A stretch of 64,000 nt of DNA from Pontibacillus chungwhensis (GTDB taxonomy: Bacteria > Bacillota > Bacilli > Bacillales > BH030062). Within the stretch, counting starts at the first letter, position 1. Every line of letters starts with the position of its first letter. Under the pieces are notes generated by a model. The model did no database searches, was not told the origin of the DNA, and saw only the letters and a program-made list of their open reading frames with translations. The position numbers and the translations under genes were made by a program. The stretch spans positions 2,852,001 to 2,916,000 of the forward strand of contig NZ_CP126446.1 in assembly GCF_030166655.1 (NCBI RefSeq). Direction: 5' to 3'. Below, piece after piece: positions 30,495 through 55,590 of the stretch.

Positions 30495-30691
30495 AAACCA
30501 ATCCCAATCGTGCCGTCACAGTCCAATGTTTTGAACCCCGCTCTTGGCAAGTGGGTGCTTTGTTCTGTAATTTATGCGTCCTCTAAGTAAGTGAAACAAG
30601 GCTTGCATGCCTTACAGAAACTTCAAGCTCCCGTAGTTCAAAATGTTCGGTCAAAACGATTGTTGGATGACGTACACATCAGGATCGGTTT
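30495..30691 (-). ncRNA. bsrA: 6S RNA (6S-1/BsrA type)
   Basis: 6S RNA mimics an open promoter and sequesters SigA RNA polymerase. Three observations support it. The ends pair: AAACCGATCC and GGATTGGTTT on the - strand (30691-30682 and 30504-30495). Read on the + strand, 30645-30657 is GTTCGGTCAAAAC, the start of the known B. subtilis 6S-1 product RNA, so the template bubble is conserved. The gene lies between aspS and tcdA as bsrA does. The 5' part (CCTGATGTGT) also matches B. subtilis. About 197 nt; exact ends could be some bases longer. Confidence 0.9.
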
Positions 30692-33904: not shown

Positions 33905-34209
33905 TAAAAACTCCCGCCCCATATTCGATACAAATAGGTATCGAATAGGGACGGGAGATCTTACCCGCGTTGCCACCCTAGTTGAAGCATTAAAATGCTT
34001 CCGCTTAAACAGTTAACGCCTGCCACGTCCATCACCTACTCACAATCGCTTTCGATGCGGAACCTAAGGAATGTCTTTCGCTAAGGTCATTTACAGAGAT
34101 ACTTTCAGCCAAATGGTATCTCCTCTCTTCTCTAAACGTTTCCCTAGCTACTCTTTCCATCAACGGTAATCAATATAAATGTATGTGAAAAAGTACTTTT
34201 ACTAGCCTG
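33905..34209 (-). promoter_or_regulatory. T-box leader of hisS-aspS (histidine)
   Basis: On the - strand the T-box AGGGTGGCAACGCGGG reads at 33979-33964, followed by a long terminator stem CTCCCG...CGGGAG (33911-33957) and T-run (33910-33906). Stem I has the CCATTTGGCTGAAAG distal motif. The likely specifier is CAT (His; + strand ATG at 34071-34073) in the context AAAGA-CAT-T. One His-responsive leader thus appears to control both hisS and aspS. Confidence 0.9.
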
Positions 34210-54418: not shown

Positions 54419-55039
54419 TTACGCTTTCTGCATCATAAGGGCTAACCCTTTACGTACATATTCATCCACACTTGAGCACTGTTCTTTTTCAAGTTTTGGC
54501 CTGATCGATTTAATCTCTCGATCCGAATACCCTAACGCCCTCATGGCTTCTAGTGCTTCGTCTACAAAGTTCGTCTGTTCTTTATGGGTATGCTCCCCTT
54601 CGAAGAAGATCGTCGTTTCATCTTGTTCCACAGGTAACCACTCGGTCAGTTTCCCTTTTAAGTCCAAGATCATCTGGCGAGCCGTCTTCTTCCCAACTCC
54701 AGGGAAACGGGTTAAGAATTTGTCGTCCTCACGTTCAATGGCCGATACAACTTCTCCGACAGATGTTGATCCAACAATCGCAAGAGCTCCCTTAGGCCCG
54801 ATCCCTGAGACATTTAGTAATTTCGAGAAGATCATTTTCTCCTCAGGCGTTTTAAAACCATACAACGTCTGCAGGTCCTCTCGCACATAATGGTACGTAT
54901 AAATAAGCGTCTCCTTCCCTTTCATCGTCTGAAAGGCAAACGGATTCGCACATAAAATTTCATATCCAATGCCACTTGCTTCTACAATGACATTCTCAGC
55001 CGACACAGCAGCCACATTCCCTCTAACATAAGCTATCAT
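54419..55039 (-). CDS. ruvA: Holliday junction DNA helicase RuvA
   Basis: Binds the four-way junction and recruits RuvB. 206 residues: OB-fold domain (MIAYVRGNVAAVSAENVIVEASGIGYEI), two helix-hairpin-helix motifs (LLNVSGIGPKGALAIVG near 73 and FLTRFPGVGKKTARQMI near 108), and the flexible C-terminal domain III (EALRALGYS-type EAMRALGYSDREI). First gene of its run. Confidence 0.96.
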   Translation of the reverse strand: MIAYVRGNVAAVSAENVIVEASGIGYEILCANPFAFQTMKGKETLIYTYHYVREDLQTLYGFKTPEEKMIFSKLLNVSGIGPKGALAIVGSTSVGEVVSAIEREDDKFLTRFPGVGKKTARQMILDLKGKLTEWLPVEQDETTIFFEGEHTHKEQTNFVDEALEAMRALGYSDREIKSIRPKLEKEQCSSVDEYVRKGLALMMQKA

Positions 55040-55096: not shown

Positions 55097-55376
55097 CCAA
55101 AAGCGCAGGCCCCTGTTTGGCTCCGTCAGGCATAAGAAAAATAACGGAGGGTAGCGACCTTTCTACCCGCAGTTATTTTCCTTATGACCCCGAGGAGCCA
55201 GGGGCCGGAGCTAGATGATGAACCAAAAGCGCAGGCCCCTTGTTTAGTTCCGGAGGCATAAGACGAGCAACGGAGGGAAGGGACCTTTCTTCCCGCAGTT
55301 GATTGACTTATGTCCAGAGGAACTAGGGGCCGGAGCTAGATGATGAACCAAAAGCGCAGGCCCCTGGCTCCGATAT
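55097..55376. repeat. two and a fraction tandem copies of a structured ~125-bp intergenic repeat
   Basis: The unit begins CCAAAAGCGCAGGCCCCT at 55097, 55223 and 55348 (period 126 and 125) and ends with GGGGCCGGAGCTAGATGATGAA. Each full unit folds into one long hairpin: GGCCCCT...AGGGGCC on the outside, then GGCTCC/GGAGCC, CATAAG/CTTATG, an AAC/GTT arm, and GGGTAG/CTACCC at the tip. Between copies 1 and 2 paired positions change together (GGCTCC/GGAGCC becomes AGTTCC/GGAACT; GTAG/CTAC becomes GAAG/CTTC). The third copy (55348-55376) is truncated to the outer arm. No ORF fits. Kind unknown: it may be a REP/BIME-like mobile intergenic element of Bacillaceae. Confidence 0.85.
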
Positions 55377-55494: not shown

Positions 55495-55590
55495 ATGAGT
55501 ACGATTGATCGTATTGTGGAATATCTCAAAAACCTCGGAGTGAATGCTGAAAAAGTATACCGGCCACCTAAGAGTAAAACACAGTCGTAA
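55495..55590 (+). CDS. 31-codon hypothetical protein with own promoter and terminator
   Basis: Encodes MSTIDRIVEYLKNLG (amphipathic helix) followed by a basic Pro-rich tail (VYRPPKSKTQS). GGGGTG ends 6 bases before ATG 55495. The SigA-type promoter ends 33 bases upstream, and a strong terminator begins 13 bases after the stop, so the whole unit is about 180 bases. I do not recognise the family; it is not a known Phr, Spo0E or SASP type by eye. Short and single-copy, so its reality rests on the signals around it. Confidence 0.6.
   Translation: MSTIDRIVEYLKNLGVNAEKVYRPPKSKTQS

Follow-up and report, generated by a model that had tools for sequence, protein, structure and literature searches.

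The window analysed here is a stretch of 64,000 nt from Pontibacillus chungwhensis, and it carries a tandem array of hairpin repeats between ruvA, on the minus strand, and a 31-codon open reading frame (ORF) on the plus strand (Table 1). The ORF coordinates agree with this location, which had been given in an earlier sequence-only reading. The array runs antisense to ruvA and lies about 60 nt from its start codon. By inspection, recognisable counterparts of the short ORF beyond the array occupy the corresponding position in relatives within the genus. Elsewhere in the window, Rfam matches at gathering score mark a 6S RNA (30497-30688) and a T-box leader (33944-34172). The array itself is composed of two full copies followed by a truncated third, head to tail as first described, with unit starts 126 nt apart and 77% identity between copies 1 and 2 over their first 93 nt. 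The repeat unit proposed at that time stands, but its start has to be moved: the family model begins the units at AAAAGC (55099, 55225 and 55350), and the 'CC' ahead of AAAAGC in copies 2 and 3 is part of a 7-nt linker, ATGAACC.

Table 1. Features of the hairpin array and its neighbours, in window coordinates
Feature	Position	Strand	Evidence
ruvA	54419..55039	-	ORF; match in 8/8 genus genomes; name from the sequence-only reading
Hairpin unit 1 (full)	55099..55217	+	R1 covariance model 106.0 bits, E 3.7e-31 in window; training-set member
Linker ATGAACC	55218..55224	+	Sequence; like flank of orthologous array in two relatives (ATGAACCCC, ATGAACACC)
Hairpin unit 2 (full)	55225..55342	+	R1 99.4 bits, E 4.4e-29; training-set member
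Second linker ATGAACC	55343..55349	+	Sequence
5' fragment of third unit, terminal, few nt missing inside	55350..~55372	+	Sequence; end approximate, by inspection
31-codon ORF, far side of array	55495..55590	+	ORF

As had been claimed, each full copy forms a single long hairpin; it does so on either strand, with z between -5.2 and -8.8 and none of 200 shuffles folding as well. The segment 55097-55222 (unit 1) reaches -58.4 kcal/mol (z -6.1), and 55223-55347 (unit 2) reaches -55.2 kcal/mol (z -5.2). Stem positions change in step between the two copies, and the covarying segments are found where they had been placed: GGCTCC (55119) and GGAGCC (55194) in the first copy correspond to AGTTCC (55246) and GGAACT (55319) in the second, and GGGTAG/CTACCC to GGGAAG/CTTCCC. 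At E ≤ 0.1, the R1 covariance model of the family finds exactly two units in the window, both of which are among its 63 training units.

The covariation seen between two copies stays strong when many are compared. Alignment A1 holds 63 distinct units, picked by their conserved ends (one mismatch allowed in each) and aligned without structure; 64 units were collected and L107:5377 was omitted, while L017, L106, L119, L130, L137 and the non-Bacillales loci had been left out before collection. Because the units and the pattern were chosen by conserved ends, part of the conservation seen at the ends, which take in much of the outer loop, follows from the selection itself. The consensus structure comprises 33 pairs, 29 of which show double-sided changes across the 63 units. 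Paired cells amount to 91.3%, against 65.0% in shuffled and 31-46% in slid controls, and the covariation score is 0.627, against 0.170 and 0.07-0.16, respectively. The claim that the paired structure, rather than the sequence, is kept is thereby upheld. The outer internal loop sets GCA opposite GGA in 55 of the 63 aligned units, both triplets lying inside the selecting pattern, and in 179 of the 271 model matches that are 105 nt or longer. Among the 87 matches outside the pattern, GCA/GGA occurs 26 times, GGA/GGA 13, GTA/GGA 8, ACA/GGA 7 and GGA/GCA 6, which indicates that a purine-rich mismatch is usual in this loop and the exact letters less so.

Closely related copies show how the pairs change, although the compared pairs are not mutually independent. 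At up to 3% divergence there are no double changes against 20 single ones, nine of which break a pair; the corresponding counts are 8 and 57 at 3-7%, 30 and 56 at 7-11%, and 41 and 41 at 11-16%, where the 30 and 41 doubles are those that remain paired and four more non-pairing doubles occur in each of these two classes. In the lowest class (up to 3%), the rate of change is 0.78% for paired and 2.9% for unpaired sites. These stepwise pair changes, together with the slower change at paired sites in near-identical copies, argue that the fold is under selection. Covariation could also arise if one arm were copied onto the other by fold-back (quasi-palindrome correction), and one comparison has this appearance: unit 1 at the ruvA site differs between the window and its orthologue in the relative G006 at 16 of 118 positions, 12 of which lie in stems and amount to six double-sided changes without a single-sided one. 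However, doubles are lacking among the closest pairs and rise with divergence, and the outer loop, which such copying should make complementary, stays mismatched both in the model matches and outside the pattern. Arm copying in place of selection is therefore considered very unlikely.

The mismatches also bear on which strand folds. The alignment made without structure has more G-U/U-G than A-C/C-A cells (86 vs 38) and more G-A/A-G than C-U/U-C cells (79 vs 8). G-G exceeds C-C (19 vs 12), and A-A against U-U (7 vs 16) goes opposite to this reading of the folded strand. Across 195 units in model-fitted alignments, which lean to standard pairs, G-U vs A-C stands at 235 vs 60 and G-A vs C-U at 180 vs 26. 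Since these mismatch classes are mirrored between the two strands, the excess of G-U and G-A suggests that the strand as written (AAAAGCGC...) is probably the folded one.

The window array is a member of a dispersed family of head-to-tail hairpins. The family comprises at least 88 R1 matches in the genome of P. chungwhensis, lying in 53 clusters (150 of 627 candidates scored), and is matched in 43 of the 299 Bacilli genomes sampled, which bears out the suggestion of a Bacillaceae intergenic repeat family; far from being scarce, copies are many in related genomes. The 88 matches include six copies in rRNA spacers, 13 inside a larger repeat, 19 of a sister class of about 148 nt and some fragments, and a BLAST search with the unit returns 16 matches in the same genome. 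Of the 43 positive genomes, 21 (of 27 listed) belong to the window's own order, 20 to family f13 and one each to f20 and f42; with 12 candidates scored per genome for the unit and 16 for the Bacillaceae-1 RNA discussed below, absences among the 299 genomes are not firm. In a pattern scan of named genomes, the matches listed include Shouchella, Cytobacillus, Rossellomorea, Aquibacillus, Pontibacillus, Sporosarcina, Planococcus, Domibacillus and others. Copy number ranges from dozens to more than 100 per chromosome in many Bacillus relatives.

The family has apparently not yet been named in the literature. Over the window and 34 loci scanned, Rfam 15 gives no family for the plain unit at gathering score, only the Bacillaceae-1 module being matched. 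A description of the unit was not found by title or abstract among the literature matches listed, and those listed for short conserved strings looked unrelated. A query from Rossellomorea has no match in phage records and matches one of 72,556 plasmid records; the window query matches none of the plasmids. Eleven viral contigs that match the pattern were rejected at model scores of at most 20.4 bits. A further 29 pattern-match loci were set aside as chance, with scores of at most 25.2 bits besides L130 in Oceanobacillus (44.8 bits) and L106 in Ornithinibacillus (32.2 bits), which may be decayed units.

The ruvA site carries the array in P. chungwhensis and in two relatives (G003 and G006) and is empty in the other five of the eight genus genomes. 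Such filled and empty sites between species of a genus, together with copy number and scatter, support mobility. Once in place, arrays seem to lengthen and shrink by local tandem events, as indicated by linkers, flanks and fragments. The first linker of an array resembles the flank of its own locus: the likeness in P. chungwhensis is 2.47 vs 0.78 for shuffled pairs (0/2000), and within the two classes of this genome 2.0 vs 1.34 (1/2000) and 3.36 vs 1.81 (0); it is 2.45 vs 1.66 in Shouchella (6/2000) and 2.1 vs 0.78 in a mixed group (0). The ATGAACC linker at ruvA agrees with the flank found in G003 and G006, the window's own flank being altered. At locus L199, G006 has only a 5' fragment, and P. 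chungwhensis and G003 have full units. The linker-flank likeness fits local tandem duplication as well as target-site duplication. By strict match, a terminal partial copy is present in 71 of 149 arrays.

Two further kinds of copies occur. The sister class of about 148 nt (19 units, 18 distinct) shares the ends of the unit and has a longer, highly conserved interior (L192, L210 and others). With the structure taken from the same rows, 98.6% of its cells are paired and 11 of 43 pairs show more than one Watson-Crick type. In P. chungwhensis, terminal copies of this class often end near GGAAACAC. Thirteen units are found inside the larger dispersed repeat, with flanks GAGCCTCCTC ... GGGGTCTC (L182, L183, L186-L190, L195, L200, L204, L206, L209 and L211), and apparently represent a composite or hitchhiking copy.

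In four of the five genomes tested, the orientation of the arrays mostly follows chromosome replication. GC skew served to locate origin and terminus; a search for a dif pattern of the B. subtilis type gave no match. In P. chungwhensis, 32 of 35 free arrays oppose the fork; this test sets aside six rRNA-spacer clusters (0/6 opposed) and 13 composite clusters (9/13 opposed), and the cluster at 1902477, with units on both strands, is counted twice. Opposed clusters number 33 of 43 in Rossellomorea sp. AcN35-11, 34 of 39 in Bacillus sp. PAMC26568 and 84 of 94 in G264, where 13 of 107 clusters in an unresolved origin zone are left out, so that 183 of 211 clusters oppose the replication fork over the four genomes. 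G268 shows no bias (8/20), and its origin is less sure owing to mixed skew. The strand counts draw on 91 of 101 units in G001, 59 of 106 in G002, 125 of 136 in G264 and 25 of 26 in G268. In P. chungwhensis, arrays are antisense to leading-strand gene neighbours in 35 of 37 cases and sense to lagging-strand gene neighbours in 23 of 25. Because the rule holds beside genes on both strands, direction is predicted by replication and not by transcription. The six rRNA-operon copies run with transcription and with the fork.

The position of the arrays relative to genes is equally marked. Where the upstream gene has the same direction, 36 of 57 arrays start within 12 nt of its stop codon. A 5' gene is called for 133 arrays; 76 of them run antisense to that gene, and none of these 76 lies within 12 nt of it; on the 3' side the figure is 3 of 131. 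These distances refer to ORF calls of at least 80 aa and omit 10 of 149 arrays that lie inside called ORFs. A stop codon supplied by the element itself was considered and rejected: at two loci examined, relatives lacking the array have the stop at the same place. Units also occupy the spacer of rRNA operons, where they begin 1 nt behind 23S and ahead of 5S at three of the six rRNA copies of P. chungwhensis (those checked with Rfam), and after a 4-nt gap behind 23S, again ahead of 5S, at three places in Rossellomorea vietnamensis. In both 3' UTRs and rRNA spacers, the apparent folded strand is the transcribed strand.

Some arrays contain a known RNA motif. In a scan of 23 array loci of P. chungwhensis (including two from the ~148-nt class) and one rRNA locus, Bacillaceae-1 RNA (RF01690), defined in PMC2864571, is found inside or directly behind the units, on the same strand, in nine arrays (L013, L009, L011, L012, L019, L020, L197, L203 and L208). 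By inspection, these arrays share a 5' leader with the RNA, which is nonetheless a 67-nt motif of its own and occurs without a unit match. Rfam does not find it in the window. Other matches in the same genome (982878, 539243, 3393840 and 447340) lie outside all listed R1 clusters. Among the 299 genomes, Bacillaceae-1 RNA is present in 21 of 43 unit-positive and 46 of 256 unit-negative genomes; the unit and the RNA are thus associated but separable.

The apparent single folded strand, the units in 3' UTRs and rRNA spacers and the RNA motif in some arrays make it possible that the array acts as a structured RNA. Carried to its full extent, this would make the family primarily a functional hairpin of 3' UTRs and spacers that marks or protects RNA 3' ends, spread by recombination and kept for that role. 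The closeness of array starts to sense stops, the units directly behind 23S, the selection on pairs and the nine arrays with Bacillaceae-1 RNA all fit such a role. However, where a 5' gene is called, more than half of the arrays run antisense to it, and orientation tracks replication and not gene direction. A primarily RNA-based function appears rather unlikely.

It appears fairly probable, instead, that the window array represents one local copy of a mobile, non-autonomous hairpin element whose spread is coupled to replication, with REP/MITE-like behaviour in a family of its own, and which is kept as a structured element in untranslated regions. The mobile element would depend on a recombinase acting in trans that recognises the folded strand, and insertion would take place at replication forks, the folded strand entering the nascent lagging strand. 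Arrays would then lengthen or shrink by local tandem duplication of the unit and a short leader. Copies would survive where genes are left unbroken, i.e., after the stop codons of lagging-strand genes, antisense upstream of leading-strand genes and behind 23S rRNA, and the retained hairpin would stay under constraint, probably as an RNA structure of untranslated regions. The selection that persists after insertion points to a function at the site, of which this would be the simplest. Several observations count against the mobile-element reading. The lasting constraint on pairs exceeds what a purely selfish element would require. No transposase or recombinase was found linked to the units; the strand rule fails in G268, the rRNA-spacer copies run with the fork and composites are opposed in only 9 of 13 cases; A-A and U-U mismatches go the opposite way, and a terminal partial copy is present in under half of the arrays. 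As a more tentative and rather doubtful extension, the element may spread at forks by the joining of one folded strand into the nascent lagging strand, with machinery distinct from Y1 HUH enzymes, and may have captured, or been captured by, the Bacillaceae-1 motif, which would make this orphan RNA partly a module of a mobile repeat.

The fork-opposed strand rule, the proximity to stop codons, the units adjacent to 23S and the Bacillaceae-1 RNA within arrays are new beyond the sequence-only reading. The family is a repeat with more than 100 copies in some genomes, a fold under selection and a layout set by replication direction, and it offers a ready model of how a hairpin may spread along with replication when no transposase is obvious. 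Its units also occur between 23S and 5S in rRNA operons, and it gives a new angle on the unexplained Bacillaceae-1 RNA.

Among known systems, the REP/BIME elements suggested at the outset serve as an analogy, but the units are not members. REP/BIME elements are short, dispersed, high-copy hairpins, mostly intergenic and often 3' of genes, as outlined in PMC3733652 and PMC6006769. The units resemble them, including REPINs so far as these accounts describe them, in being short, high-copy, mostly intergenic and often 3' of genes, with a presumed non-autonomous mobility. REPs are, in the outline given by PMC3733652, palindromes of 20-40 nt with a GTAG or CGTC foot, arranged in inverted pairs. The units, in contrast, measure about 114-121 nt (or about 148 nt), have several internal loops and lie head to tail; a GTAG/CGTC foot was not seen on them by inspection, their ends being AAAAGCG and CCGGAGCTRGA. 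Mobilisation of such a REP/BIME element by a RAYT (Y1 HUH) transposase would agree with intergenic hairpins in high copy and with Y1_Tnp genes in P. chungwhensis (four loci) and in 32 of the 43 unit-positive genomes. Yet none of the 88 R1 matches lies within 1.5 kb of these four loci, two of which sit, by inspection, amid other palindromes, and 11 of the 43 positive genomes have no Y1_Tnp match, seven of them with at least 12 unit matches. Together with the head-to-tail arrangement and the ~120-nt length, these findings make RAYT mobilisation extremely unlikely. RAYT-like Y1_Tnp genes occur in P. chungwhensis at 3.57, 3.73 and 3.64 Mb (L022, L023 and L024); by inspection, L023 and L024 show GGGAC...GTCCC-type palindromes and L022 a different one, which are possibly REP systems of their own.

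Two other kinds of structure were set aside. An intrinsic terminator would have a T run directly behind a G+C stem, but by inspection the ends of the 63 aligned units are CCGGAGCTRGAYN-like and lack such a run. The lack of a T run also bears on the transcription barrier suggested in the sequence-only reading. Integron attC sites have the core sites RYYYAAC and GTTRRRY and an integrase nearby; the conserved ends of the unit are instead AAAAGCGCAGG and CCGGAGCTRGA, and attC was rejected on these core sites.

Other repeats of Bacillaceae also invite comparison. The bcr1 repeat is reportedly specific to the Bacillus cereus group, unlike the present unit, which occurs across genera; the two are set apart by description and not by sequence. 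Like the unit, the bcr1-bcr18 repeats of that group are intergenic repeats of Bacillaceae, some with conserved structure or MITE-like and about half of them transcribed in the strains studied, according to the portion of PMC3446304 that treats them. Against the terminal inverted repeats of MITEs, the whole unit is an imperfect inverted repeat. Bhal-1 of B. halodurans, a family of intergenic stem-loops of 74 nt in the outline of PMC2267715, is similar in kind and in a related species; going by that description, it could be related to the unit.

The orientation rule recalls IS200/IS605 and Tn7, whose orientation likewise tracks replication direction in the account summarised in PMC5371812. In IS200/IS605, by the same summary (PMC5371812), the transposed strand lies in the lagging-strand template, whereas the apparently folded strand of the unit is the nascent lagging strand, and the 11 positive genomes without a Y1 match again set the two apart. 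If the G-U-rich strand is the active one, the strand rule of the unit is opposite to the IS200/IS605 expectation.
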